A stretch of 55,463 nt of DNA, taken from positions 1-55,463 of the forward strand of contig JAFUWY010000021.1 of the NCBI GenBank assembly GCA_017477245.1. The letters are read 5' to 3'. A program made the translations under genes and the position numbers. The stretch's first letter is position 1. Each line of letters begins with the position of its first letter. The stretch is from Bacteroidales bacterium. Lineage in GTDB: Bacteria > Bacteroidota > Bacteroidia > Bacteroidales > UBA932. Of this stretch, positions 32,960 through 55,463 are shown piece by piece. The notes below the pieces were generated by a model. The model worked only from the letters and a program-made list of their open reading frames with translations, searched no databases and was not told the origin of the DNA.

Positions 32960-35380
32960 TTATCGGGTAAACAGATTGACAAGCGTCGCCACCATGGTAG
33001 CCAGCGAAACGGCCGACGTGCCCAGGGACATCACCTGGGGAGCAGACATCGGAGCACGTTCCGGTTTTGCCGGAACAATGATTTCGCAACCGGGTTCAAT
33101 CTTGGCGCCTATTGAAGAGGCTCGTTTCACACGTCCGTTCATATAGACGATATATGTTTTTTTCCAACGCGCACGTTCTCCATAACCACCGGCTGCATCG
33201 ATGTAATAATCCAGGTTCTTGCCGGGGATAAAGACCGTTGTGTTGGGAAACATGACAGCACCGCTGATACGTACGGTCATGATTTCTTCCGGCACAAAGA
33301 TCCGGTCGCCGTCACGCAGGATCATATCATACTCGGAGCCGGGCTTCGTAACCGCCTTGTCCAGTTCTATACCAACCGTATAGGATTGGTCAGCAAGTAC
33401 TTGGTCCAAGTCGAGAGAATCCCGGATGGCGCTGGAAGAGGCAATCCGGCGGATGGTTCTTTGAAGATTCTGTTCCTCCTTATTCATGCGGCGGGTCAGG
33501 GTGGAGCCGTGCAGGAATGCCCGGTCGGTCTTGCCGCCGGCACGCTTGAGCAGGTCTGAGAGACGCTCACCCTCGGTCAGCAGGACATACTCACCCGGGA
33601 AGGCGACTTCCCCTTCGATCCGGACGAATTTCTGTGTACGGTAGGCCGGGCTGCGACGCACGGAAACTACATCATAAGGCTGCAGGTAGAAGTTCTCCCC
33701 ACCGTCAATCGCCAGGTTATCCTTGATGGCAAAAGAGAATGTCTCTCCAATCGTATCTTTCGGCATCGTACTGTAAGGGTCGGTGACGCGTCGCGCTACA
33801 TCCACCCGGGAATAGGAAGCGCCTTCCAACAGACCACCAGCCTGCAAGATCAGGTCTTCCACGGTCGTATTCTCGGAGAAAGGGAAAACACCCGGACTGG
33901 CCACGGCACCATTGATGGTCAGGGTTCCCCGGTCATTGATTTCGTGGATACCCGAGACGACCAGGATATCATTCTTCCGCAGGAGGACATCATCCGCCTT
34001 TCCAGAGAGGATACCCGACAGGTCCACGGAGATGGTTTCCAGGCTGAGATCATCCTTCTCACGCATGATGACGGCACGGCCCGTAAAGGCATCCTCCTTC
34101 AGACCGCCGGCACCGGCAATGAGTTGGCGCACCGTCGCAATCTCCTTGCCGAGCTCAAACATCCCCGGACGGAAAACATATCCCCGGACCTCTACCTTGT
34201 TGGCGAATCTGTCCATGCTGGCTCCAACCGTGACGTAGTCACCGTCTTCCATTCGGAAACCATCGATTTGGTCTGCCTTGACATTGAAGACCTGACGTTC
34301 CGGACCAGTCTGCCGAATCAAGCGAAAATCTTCCCGGAACGCATCGCTGGAGAAACCTCCCGCATAATCGATCAAGGTCGACAGACTCTCTCCCCCCAGC
34401 AATTCGTACGACATCGGGCGCTTGACCTTTCCGCTGACAGTCACGATATTGACGTAAGGAGGTACCATGACGACATCTCCTTCCTGCAGAGCGATATCCG
34501 TATCCGTCCGACCCTCGATCAAATAGTCATATACGTCCACGCTCGCAATCTGTTCCCCGCCCCGGATGACCTTGATGGCTCGGAGGGTTCCCCGGGAGGT
34601 CACGCCACCTGCGCGGTAGAGCGCATGAAAAACCGATGAAAAAGAAGAAAGGCGGAAAGTGCCCGGAGTTCTGACTTCTCCCATCACGTTCACCTGGATC
34701 GTTCGGATCGACCCCAATGTCACACTGACAGAAGTATTGGGCTTGCTACCTCCGATGCTCGAATATTTGGAAACCAAGGCTTTCCGGATTTTCTCCGTAG
34801 CGGCCGCAATGGTAAGGCCACTCAATTGAATCGGGCCGATCTGACTGATATAGACCCGCCCTTCCGGCGAGATCGTCAGAGTATAGCTTCCCTCGCTATA
34901 TCCCCAAATGTCTATGATGACCTGGTCACCAGGCCCCAGGCGATAATCCTGCGGCGTCGCGGCGTTTTCGTTCGGTTCGAACGTCAAGGATCGCTGTCCC
35001 CGAAACAGGTCGTGTCCGTAAATCTGCACCCCGGATCCTTCCTCGGGATCCGCAGCCTGGGCCGCCACGGAGTCTAACACACCATCACCTGGCGCGACCG
35101 CTTCCGCCCGTGAATCCCGGGATATCGTCCCATGAGAAAGAGCTTGATCGGTTACCGTCCCTTCCGAAGTCTGCTCTGCTTCGTATTTTGCCTTTATACG
35201 CTCCGCTTGCGCCTGGGTAACACCGCGAGCAAGTAGTTCCTTGCCGATCTCGTTTTGGGACTTACCTGCAGCAAGGCTGGACTTCACATAGCTAACAACC
35301 TGGTCATCGGTCATTTGCGCATATGCACCCAAGGAGAGGGAACACATTATGATGACCGCAATCAAACCCTTTTTTCTCAT
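32960..35380 (-). CDS. Wza-type polysaccharide export protein with SLBB repeats
   Basis: The 806-aa protein has a cleavable signal (MRKKGLIAVIIMCSLSLGAYAQ), a short Bacteroidetes-specific helical segment (MTDDQVVSYVKSSLAAGKSQ), the Poly_export domain (YRLGPGDQVIIDIWGYSEG, near residue 125-200) and then a series of SLBB domains (for example VNVMGEVRTPGTF, TVSGKVKRPMSYEL, VEVRGYVFRPGMF, LTINGAVASPGVF, VRIEGEVAFPGEY, VRISGAVMFPNT). A hydrophobic stretch closes the protein. It should form the outer-membrane/periplasmic channel for capsule or exopolysaccharide. No lipobox is seen, unlike E. coli Wza. First gene of the operon. Confidence 0.9.
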   Translation of the reverse strand: MRKKGLIAVIIMCSLSLGAYAQMTDDQVVSYVKSSLAAGKSQNEIGKELLARGVTQAQAERIKAKYEAEQTSEGTVTDQALSHGTISRDSRAEAVAPGDGVLDSVAAQAADPEEGSGVQIYGHDLFRGQRSLTFEPNENAATPQDYRLGPGDQVIIDIWGYSEGSYTLTISPEGRVYISQIGPIQLSGLTIAAATEKIRKALVSKYSSIGGSKPNTSVSVTLGSIRTIQVNVMGEVRTPGTFRLSSFSSVFHALYRAGGVTSRGTLRAIKVIRGGEQIASVDVYDYLIEGRTDTDIALQEGDVVMVPPYVNIVTVSGKVKRPMSYELLGGESLSTLIDYAGGFSSDAFREDFRLIRQTGPERQVFNVKADQIDGFRMEDGDYVTVGASMDRFANKVEVRGYVFRPGMFELGKEIATVRQLIAGAGGLKEDAFTGRAVIMREKDDLSLETISVDLSGILSGKADDVLLRKNDILVVSGIHEINDRGTLTINGAVASPGVFPFSENTTVEDLILQAGGLLEGASYSRVDVARRVTDPYSTMPKDTIGETFSFAIKDNLAIDGGENFYLQPYDVVSVRRSPAYRTQKFVRIEGEVAFPGEYVLLTEGERLSDLLKRAGGKTDRAFLHGSTLTRRMNKEEQNLQRTIRRIASSSAIRDSLDLDQVLADQSYTVGIELDKAVTKPGSEYDMILRDGDRIFVPEEIMTVRISGAVMFPNTTVFIPGKNLDYYIDAAGGYGERARWKKTYIVYMNGRVKRASSIGAKIEPGCEIIVPAKPERAPMSAPQVMSLGTSAVSLATMVATLVNLFTR

Positions 35381-35420
35381 ATGCCTAAACTGATTTCTTG
35401 ACAATTACTTATAAAACATA

Positions 35421-35887: not shown

Positions 35888-36180
35888 ATAATAAAAAGAC
35901 GTCAAAGATGTCCGGGGCGGGGCTCTTCTCCCCTCGGGCTCCCCTGTCGGATTCGATTCCTAACCCTGGGACCGGGACAGACAACGTGGTGCGCAAAGCC
36001 CTTTTTTGCGTGATAAGGAAGTCGCTGATTATCAACAAGAACTAAAAATTACTATTGCTGAAAATACCACTGATTTCGAAAAGATGCACAGTATCAATTA
36101 CTTCCTCATCACGCTTCGTCGCCGAGGGAGAGAGGAGAGAGGAGAGCGAGAGAGTGTCGGCAGCGGCAAATGTATGTTGT

Positions 36181-36303
36181 GGGAAACAGGAGCACCCAAT
36201 AGAAAAGGCCTGCGGGGTGTCCGTGTTTCCCAAGGGCCGAAATCCGGCCCTTGGGAAACACCCGGGCCCAACTGAGACCGTCAGAACGGCATCCTTGTTT
36301 CCC
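36181..36303. repeat. Two 51-nt palindromic units joined by a perfect 17-bp hairpin
   Basis: Units 36181-36231 and 36253-36303 each begin GGGAAAC, end GTTTCCC and are exactly 51 nt long. Their junction, 36223-36261, is a perfect hairpin with a 17-bp stem and loop AAATC. Unit spacing is 72 nt. Confidence 0.8.
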
Positions 36304-36334
36304 ACCGCTGCGGGCTACAAACTTTTTGGCATTA

Positions 36335-36544
36335 CCAGGGGCGCACTGCCCTATCTCCGCCCCTGGCGACCTGGTTTCCTCTCTGCCAGGGGCAAAAACT
36401 AGCCTCTTTGCCCCTGGCAGGCGATTTTCCTCGTTGCCAGGGGCTGTGGGGCCTTGATTTGCCCCTGGCAGGCGGTTTTCCACGTTGCCAGGGGCTGTGG
36501 GGCCTTGATTTGCCCCTGGCAGGCATTTCCCCACGATGCCAGGG
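36335..36544. repeat. 51-bp tandem hairpin array (array 1)
   Basis: CCAGGG recurs at 36335, 36386, 36437, 36488 and 36539, a constant 51-base step. Each full unit has arms GCCAGGGGC and GCCCCTGGC, a 16-nt loop and a 17-nt linker containing TTTTCC. The two middle units are nearly identical; the outer ones diverge in loop and linker but keep the arms. Confidence 0.93.
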
Positions 36545-36572
36545 ACAGTAGGACCTGTCTTCTGATCGTGCA

Positions 36573-36689
36573 GCCGTTCGGGGAGGGTCTGGCGAAGGCT
36601 CAGCCGCAGCAGGGGCCGTCGGCTCGGCCCCGGTTCCCGCGCCAGCGGGAAGCGAGGATGGAAGCCGAGCCAGGCCCTCCCCGAACGGC
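36573..36689. repeat. Branched palindrome with 21-bp arms
   Basis: Arms 36573-36593 and 36669-36689 (start GCCGTTCGGGGAGGG) match inversely at 20 of 21 positions. The interior holds GGGGCC-N8-GGCCCC and TTCCCGC-GCCA-GCGGGAA hairpins. The plan (long arms, inner hairpins) equals that of the element inside uvrD. Confidence 0.85.
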
Positions 36690-36767
36690 AAACGGGGCAA
36701 ACGAGGCAAACGAGGCAAACGGGGCAAACAAGGCAAACAAGGCAAACAAAGCAAACGTGGCAAACGA
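36687..36767 (+). repeat. 9-bp tandem repeat GGCAAACNN, nine copies
   Basis: Nine consecutive 9-mers, eight GGCAAAC plus one AGCAAAC, with the last two bases GG, GA, AA or GT. It begins inside the right arm of the branched palindrome. Confidence 0.9.
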
Positions 36768-36848
36768 TCCGGACAGGCAAGGCCGCTTTTCACATTTGTT
36801 CCATTTGTTTTCGGAATCATGCTATCCGGTCATTTCAGTCCGGAAATC

Positions 36849-55102: not shown

Positions 55103-55463
55103 TCCGGTACGGCAGTTAGCACCTCGAATAAAGACGTTTCGAACATTTCCCCGTCTCTCTCCCAGGGGCGGAGATGAGGCGCAGCGCCCCTGACAGTCGG
55201 GGAAAGCGGTTGCCAGGGGCGGAGAAAGGCCTCCGTGCCCCTGGCGGACGGGGAAAGCGGTTGCCGAGGGCGCAGAAGGGGCGCAGCGCCCCGGGCAGAC
55301 GGGGAAAGCGATTGCCAGGGGCGGAGATGAGGCGCAGCGCCCCTGGTAGTCGGGGAAAGCGGTTGCCGAGGGCGCAGAAGGGGCGCAGCGCCCCGGGCAG
55401 ATGGGGAAAGCGATTGCCAGGGGCGGAGAAAGGCCTCCGTTCCCCTGGCGGACGGGGAAGCGG
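55103..55463. other. Gene-free end of window filled by repeats
   Basis: No open frame of note starts here on either strand. Apart from about 45 bases after the GH27 stop, the whole stretch is the tandem array described next, which runs off the window. Confidence 0.85.
55147..55463. repeat. 51-bp tandem hairpin array (array 2), truncated by the window end
   Basis: GGGGAAAGCG recurs with starts of the surrounding block at 55198, 55249, 55300, 55351, 55402 and 55453 (the last copy lacks one A), always 51 bases apart. Each unit has a palindrome and a 17-nt linker containing GGGGAAAGCG. Three unit types alternate: arms GCCAGGGGC/GCCCCTGGC with loop GGAGAAAGGCCTCCGT; the same left arm with GATGAGGCGCAGC; and GCCGAGGGCGC/GCGCCCCGGGC. 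The arms are those of array 1. Confidence 0.95.

Follow-up and report, generated by a model that had tools for sequence, protein, structure and literature searches.

Tandem hairpin arrays at a 51-bp pitch in a Bacteroidales genome and a candidate RAYT-like partner transposase

Hairpin arrays of the window and of the source genome

The window analysed here, 55,463 nucleotides in length, is the whole of contig C17 (JAFUWY010000021.1) of a Bacteroidales bacterium (GCA_017477245.1; lineage UBA932; hereafter the source genome, G000). It contains two arrays of hairpins repeated every 51 bp (Table 1), the second of which is cut by the contig end. Our subjects are these arrays, their relatives elsewhere and a transposase-like gene on another contig of the same genome. 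The arrays had been noticed by a reader of the sequence alone, and we confirm that they are real, with arms, a 16-nt loop and a 17-nt linker as described. Array 1 has the four 51-bp steps counted earlier; array 2 had been credited with six, but its six units make only five full steps. Their opposite orientation, also proposed, is supported by the A-tract in one linker and the T-tract in the other.

Other details of that description need revision. The arms are not constant in array 2, where units 3 and 5 read GCCGAGGGC..GCCCCGGGC and pair at seven of nine positions. Unit types were said to alternate; identity at lag 102 does exceed that at lag 51 in array 2 (0.83 vs 0.78), but not in array 1 (0.64 vs 0.74). 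A higher-order 102-bp repeat as a general rule was rejected, being true of only three of nine arrays measured. Array 2 is not without an open frame, as all three minus-strand frames pass through it. Both arrays do adjoin a gene for a carbohydrate-active enzyme (a glycoside hydrolase family 10 plus esterase gene and an alpha-galactosidase gene), yet none of the eight genes tested beside other arrays matched a glycoside hydrolase family. The enzyme neighbourhood thus looks like a coincidence.

The arrays belong to a dispersed family. Exact GCCAGGGGC-N-GCCCCTGGC hairpins number 19 on nine contigs of the source genome, the loop is always 16 nt, although 8-30 were allowed, and the reversed control in this genome gave no match; these hairpins cannot be ascribed to chance. 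In the window and nine stretches around exact matches, 79 units form 13 arrays with no fewer than two units each; 13 is a lower bound, since the scan covered only these stretches and dropped five single-unit matches. The step is 51 in 62 of 66 cases (otherwise 50, 52, 52 and 101). No called gene overlaps any of the 13 arrays. By our gene calls, the gaps that hold them are convergent in four cases, divergent in four, tandem in two and of uncertain arrangement in three, one of which has only a weak call on one side. These gaps are long and also contain other palindromic modules, whose order is similar from place to place in several cases. A composite intergenic block makes the C17 and C42 gaps 83% alike over 711 bp. 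One arm, GCCCCTGGC (A orientation), is nearly fixed, and its partner varies: pair 4 is G.T in 34 and pair 5 is A.C in 21 of the 79 units. Pairing is therefore imperfectly kept within this one genome, in which repeat copies within arrays are not independent of one another.

A RAYT-like gene between arrays and its relatives

The sequence-only reading had recommended a search for a REP-associated tyrosine transposase (RAYT; REP, repetitive extragenic palindrome). A RAYT-like gene is present between two hairpin arrays of contig C7, as a 315-residue reading frame on the minus strand (L018:10032-10979) with an HLH sequence for its HUH motif. The protein has no match in Pfam (E <= 1) or NCBIfam (E <= 0.1), and the curated cut-offs of Y1_Tnp and NF047646 are not reached. 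Y1_Tnp is touched at E <= 0.01 by one of 30 homologues, and a profile of all 30 finds the ISDra2 transposase in the PDB at E 0.15 only, across the HUH stretch. Paralogues on C22 (30% identical) and C16 (27% identical) of the source genome lie above the Pfam Y1_Tnp cut-off. Among the 30 aligned homologues, H79, H81 and Y137 are invariant, with Y137 inside IxYxNRN and an HUH-Tyr distance of 56. An AlphaFold model (predicted local distance difference test, 79.9; predicted template modelling score, 0.74) has as its best structural match the E. coli RAYT bound to a REP hairpin, a match that places it in the Y1 transposase fold. We read the protein as a divergent RAYT-like Y1 transposase, with a predicted catalytic role. 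The database holds 527 homologues; none of the 120 listed carries a Pfam domain, and the four listed with visible source names comprise two “hypothetical protein” and two “REP element-mobilizing transposase RayT”. Homologues at E <= 0.001 occur in 160 of 299 genomes of the bacterial family, and an order-level search at E <= 1e-100 returned the gene itself alone (1 of 393 genomes).

The closest clade was collected by a genus search at E <= 1e-80, which matched 13 of 400 genomes, the source genome included. Its 14 foreign loci (53-70% identity) carry the repeat on both flanks in nine cases and on one flank in four; the sole close-clade locus with none, L106, has a truncated gene with an in-frame stop. 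Of the 16 loci that this search yielded, 11 have 51 as their top lag, with ties at L098 and L104. The hairpin downstream of the gene overlaps the stop codon or starts no more than 10 bases from it at 11 of 13 loci. The L099 frame (1501-2460) continues into this hairpin, so that the last residues of its protein, LPGAI, are repeat-encoded.

Clade loci keep the 9-16-9-17 layout but differ in their arms, which are GCCAGGGGC or GCGAGGGGC at L098-L100, GGGAGC at L101, L102, L104, L105, L112 and L113, and GGGCAC at L103 and L109-L111. When these labels, read by us off the clade flanks, are laid on the protein tree, the three types require two changes, the minimum possible. One genome (G853) has three paralogous RAYT-like genes (L100, L111 and L113), each beside a different arm type. 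Covariation was scored on 44 units, 41 of them distinct (from 56 rows, less 11 chance hairpins dropped by eye and four duplicates) and three from the source genome. Pair 7 is AU in 21, GC in 14 and CG in nine, and is never unpaired; pair 1 is unpaired in 19. The score for the arms is 0.330, against 0.141 for shuffled and 0.013-0.117 for slid partners. Neither the pairs changed on both sides (4 vs 4.0) nor the pair types (9 vs 11.5) exceed the shuffles in these units. The percentage of paired positions is biased upward, because a seed required eight of nine pairs and its neighbour six; L103 yielded no unit. As far as sequence comparison can tell, the arm changes across the clade are compensatory. 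Arrays at the two window sites alone, and arms that do not covary, had been named as the results that would favour a chance duplication; neither was obtained.

A survey of 40 genomes, selected by relatedness rather than at random and several of them incomplete, found 49 GCCAGGGGC hairpins in ten genomes, all with a 16-nt loop, and 59 CCGGGCAC hairpins in ten, 58 of them with that loop; one or other arm type is present in nine of ten genomes with a clade gene and six of 30 without.

Flanking copies were compared at 42 loci (29 from the bacterial family and 13 from the clade; L047, which is our own, L106, L107 and L108 were left out). At 28 of them the upstream and downstream copies resemble each other more than the 95th percentile of 1722 non-cognate pairs, and these copies are direct at 27 and inverted at one. 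The C7 arrays are an exception, being inverted by linker polarity. The whole unit can be seen present or absent at one site. The Pfam-identified genes UDG and lon abut without a gap in G806, G000, G236 and G699, whereas G763 has dimer, gene and dimer between them; in G853, the gene adjoins UDG. From 30 UDG loci, 17 were dropped (search motif not found); the 13 read comprise two with the transposase, four gapless, two with UDG and lon about 90 bp apart and five with other neighbours. The site shows presence and absence, not the direction of change.

More distant relatives have palindromes of their own. Around 11 RAYT-like genes of the source genome, the strongest lag is 51-52 at C16, C22, C26 and C28, and 102 followed by 51 at C7; single matches tie for it at C38, and the remaining genes have 86 (C43), 46 (C27), 72 (C15a), 30 (C3) and 83 (C15b). 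The C16 gene has GTGCAYAACGTCC dimers on both sides at lag 51, the gene at C15:24910 has a GGGAAACA module on both sides and the C43 gene has a GCGTGATGAG-type palindrome on one. The idea that all palindrome modules of this genome share the 51-bp pitch was rejected, because outside the GCCAGGGGC family other lags, among them 104, 43, 17, 24 and 39, occur as often as 51. The top tandem lag (range 30-110) is 50-52 in 17 of 29 homologue loci fetched from the bacterial family, counted over whole loci of 3-4 kb, gene included, and with the near copies L050/L051 and L058/L066 among them; most palindromes listed for these loci have arms unrelated to GCCAGGGGC. One palindrome, CATCCTCA, has 77 copies in seven of 12 genomes, with a 14-nt loop in all listed matches (12-20 allowed) and listed tandem neighbours 51 or 102 apart; its control gave 0, and G000 has no copy. 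Another, GTGCCCCGAC, has 12 copies in six of 12 genomes, with a 15-nt loop in 11. In G034, which has three copies, two form the gene's own flanks; thus, not every palindrome family has spread. Few genomes have the exact GCCAGGGGC hairpin (three of 299 in the bacterial family), and a scan of named genomes found it in 12 stretches, five of which are titled yak, buffalo or goat rumen or omasum. Of the three roles offered for the arrays by the sequence-only reading, that of RAYT target is the one supported by the gene between arrays and by homologues with their own palindromes, often at the same pitch.

Explanations for the arrays

On the sequence evidence above, the arrays are very likely REP-type elements, that is, non-autonomous palindromic repeats, of the putative divergent Bacteroidales RAYT, a Y1/HUH transposase, on C7 of the same genome. 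The two window arrays look like copies of a scattered repeat that belongs to a single-strand DNA transposase, of a kind little known so far, in gut and rumen bacteria. Related transposases have repeats of their own form, with hairpins of other sequence but a spacing that stays near 51 bases. Two hairpins at the 51-bp pitch, together an 85-bp dimer, seem to make up the basic unit. With the DNA single-stranded, the transposase probably recognises the hairpins of one strand and probably cleaves and joins via its tyrosine; dimers would thereby be scattered, and chained in intergenic gaps. The dispersal, the constant pitch, the arrays on either side of the gene, the compensatory arm changes and the fit of arm types to the protein tree come from the sequences themselves. 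We infer single-strand recognition, cleavage and mobility from the enzyme family, and the chemistry of Y1 enzymes is general background. A protein family without a Pfam name would gain a predicted substrate, and the repeat system accounts for the repeat-filled gaps of this genome and for a contig that ends inside an array. The three arm types of one clade, and the three paralogues of G853 with an arm type each, form a natural series of paired changes in protein and hairpin, on which recognition, the significance of the pitch and the descent of REP systems from insertion sequences can be tested directly.

Several observations weigh against this explanation: the sequence link between the C7 protein and named families is weak; repeats occur without a detected gene; 14 of the 42 loci have no detectable cognate flanks; and copy numbers are modest. 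The source genome has 79 loose units in ten stretches and 19 exact hairpins genome-wide, and other genomes have 1-14 exact copies, one having 40. Canonical REPs usually exceed 100 copies per genome.

An ordinary minisatellite would arise if replication slippage multiplied an imperfect palindrome and larger intergenic duplications carried it to other places, without a transposase. The arrays are tandem, pairing inside them is imperfect and composite blocks recur between loci, the C17 and C42 gaps being an example; existing arrays may well gain units by slippage. As the whole explanation it is improbable, because slippage predicts neither a 16-nt loop and 51-bp pitch that recur with different arms in other species, nor compensatory arm changes, nor arm types that track the transposase tree. 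We consider it less probable still that the units are binding sites for a structural or regulatory protein on double-stranded DNA, with the transposase a passenger. The near-fixed GCCCCTGGC arm with its variable partner, and a pitch of 51-52 near five helical turns, would suit such sites, and classic REP clusters bind gyrase and IHF, according to the part of PMC2817692 concerned. Array neighbours and gap types are mixed, however, and the repeats track the transposase gene; a secondary role of this kind is still compatible with the preferred explanation.

Compensatory changes are also what clusters of RNA stem-loops, for processing, termination or as small RNA, would show. An Rfam search of seven array-bearing stretches (the window, L018 and L022 not among them) found only rRNA and tRNA at the gathering threshold, A.C is tolerated in the hairpins like G.U, and arrays lie upstream as well as downstream of genes. 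We regard an RNA role as very improbable; neither it nor the earlier idea of hairpins on one face of the helix gained direct support. Least credible of all is that the arrays encode repeat proteins, 51 bases being 17 codons. None of the 13 arrays has stops in all six frames, and coding cannot be rejected on that ground; yet open frames are expected, because a stop-free 17-codon unit stays open when copied. The open frames differ between arrays, the gene caller placed no gene across any of them and coding does not predict compensatory pairing.

Within the transposase explanation, the pitch itself raises a possibility that we put forward tentatively and think somewhat doubtful. The 51 bp could be a ruler set by the transposase assembly, with a RAYT dimer or dimer chain holding two same-strand hairpins 51 bases apart, and arrays could have grown into chains as steps of 51 or 102 bases were joined again and again. 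One and the same dimer flanks the gene on either side in direct orientation, which is what an enzyme reading a single strand needs; on this view, units would therefore still be mobile as single-strand elements. If this were true, arm specificity would follow the changes of the protein under a constant ruler, and the clade would be an extant intermediate between IS200-type insertion sequences and REP systems.

Other modules and comparison with known systems

Two further modules, which belong to two other repeat families, lie in the gap of array 1 (Table 1). The local score of window segment 36330-36550 against the C7 flanks is 61 (best of 30 shuffles, 17), that of 36170-36310 against the C15 flanks is 35 (14) and that of 35950-36130 against the C43 flanks is 31 (14). 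This gap is therefore a mosaic of repeats tied to three transposases, since its modules specifically match the flanks of each. To the left of array 1, in the same gap, a tRNA-like sequence was seen by eye at about 35300-35400. At 36560-36790 there is a composite module, CCGTTCGGGG..CCCCGAACGG, after which GGCAAACGA is repeated in tandem every 9 bp (36687-36767); similar blocks occur on C1, C9 and C42, and none of the flanks of the 11 RAYT-like genes matches it. Several arrays have next to them a GTGGACCAGGTCCAC module some 110 bp long (L020 at 8609 and 8861, L017, L021 and L023), and no transposase belonging to it was found. By eye, L031 has a similar skeleton with other arms (GGGGAAGGTC), at a similar distance before its array. 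Conserved leaders, possibly regulatory hairpins, lie upstream of RAYT-like genes: CCATAGCCANGGTGGCGTTGGAG at several distant ones (L048-L062 flanks) and TTAAACGATTAATCGG..AAACGG in the close clade.

Table 1. Positions of hairpin arrays and neighbouring repeat modules in the window.
Feature	Position	Strand	Description
Array 1	36334..36546	(-) by A-tract linker orientation	Four hairpins (arm 9, loop 16, arm 9, linker 17) and a fifth left arm; four 51-bp steps
Array 2	55161..55463	(+) by A-tract linker orientation	Six hairpins, five full 51-bp steps, then end of contig C17
GCGTGATAAGG..CCTCATCACGC palindrome module	36008..36114		Resembles sequence beside RAYT-like gene on C43
GGGAAACA/TGTTTCCC module	36180..36306		Resembles both sides of RAYT-like gene at C15:24910

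Several described systems share features with the one reported here. The BrickBuilt miniature inverted-repeat transposable element of Porphyromonas gingivalis (Klein 2015, PMC4596501) is likewise a dispersed intergenic Bacteroidales element with a tandem repeat; it has a 23-nt repeat without spacers and inverted-repeat ends, and its abstract mentions no RAYT. TIRtrons, with their TIRYT genes (Di Nocera 2013, PMC3733652), combine RAYT-like genes with longer or double palindromes in place of GTAG REPs, and some of these repeats form families, dimers and clusters. In the section concerned, however, their terminal repeats are described as inverted, a GGGGWSAS motif is common to some and no 51-bp pitch appears. 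The relevant part of Quentin 2018 (PMC6006769) describes TnpA-Y1 subclass 2.6, also from Bacteroidetes, whose genes are flanked by “atypical secondary structures” without GTAG that have copies elsewhere in the genome. Its proteins are described as 179 residues long, with YIH[QN]NP and a median of 82 between HUH and Tyr; that signature is missing from the C7 family, which has about 315 residues (315 in the C7 protein itself), YxNRN (within IxYxNRN) and a distance of 56. Searches of the open-licence PubMed Central literature yielded no 51-bp pitch or direct-flank RAYT; the “atypical” structures in the supplement of PMC6006769 lay outside its scope, so some of ours may have been seen earlier.

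In the IS200/IS605 family (IS608, ISDra2), a Y1 HUH enzyme reads hairpins at both ends of the element. The direct orientation of end hairpins would fit such one-strand reading, and we infer that direct flank copies suit the needs of an enzyme of this kind at two ends. The present system differs in having two hairpins per end at a fixed pitch and many stand-alone copies without a gene.

There is a further likeness to the REP/RAYT systems (REPtrons; bacterial interspersed mosaic elements) of gammaproteobacteria. The portion of Nunvar 2010 (PMC2817692) used here describes a Y1 gene bordered by palindromes scattered between genes, with an own repeat per transposase, coevolution and mosaic clusters; RAYTs are stated there to be always flanked by inverted REPs. 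Compared with that account, the present system has direct rather than inverted flank copies (27 of 28 scorable loci), a 16-nt loop, a fixed 51-bp tandem pitch, a protein of about 315 residues with YxNRN and fewer copies. It also lacks the GT[AG]G tetranucleotide as a 5' foot; the motif occurs within 6 nt in six of the 79 units and in three of 36 units from the close clade, against 125 of 3000 random ones. Nevertheless, the system works like REP/RAYT: the C7 gene lies between arrays, 13 arrays are found in its genome and 28 of 42 homologue loci have cognate flanks, which is the arrangement that defines a REPtron, a gene bordered by its own dispersed palindromes.
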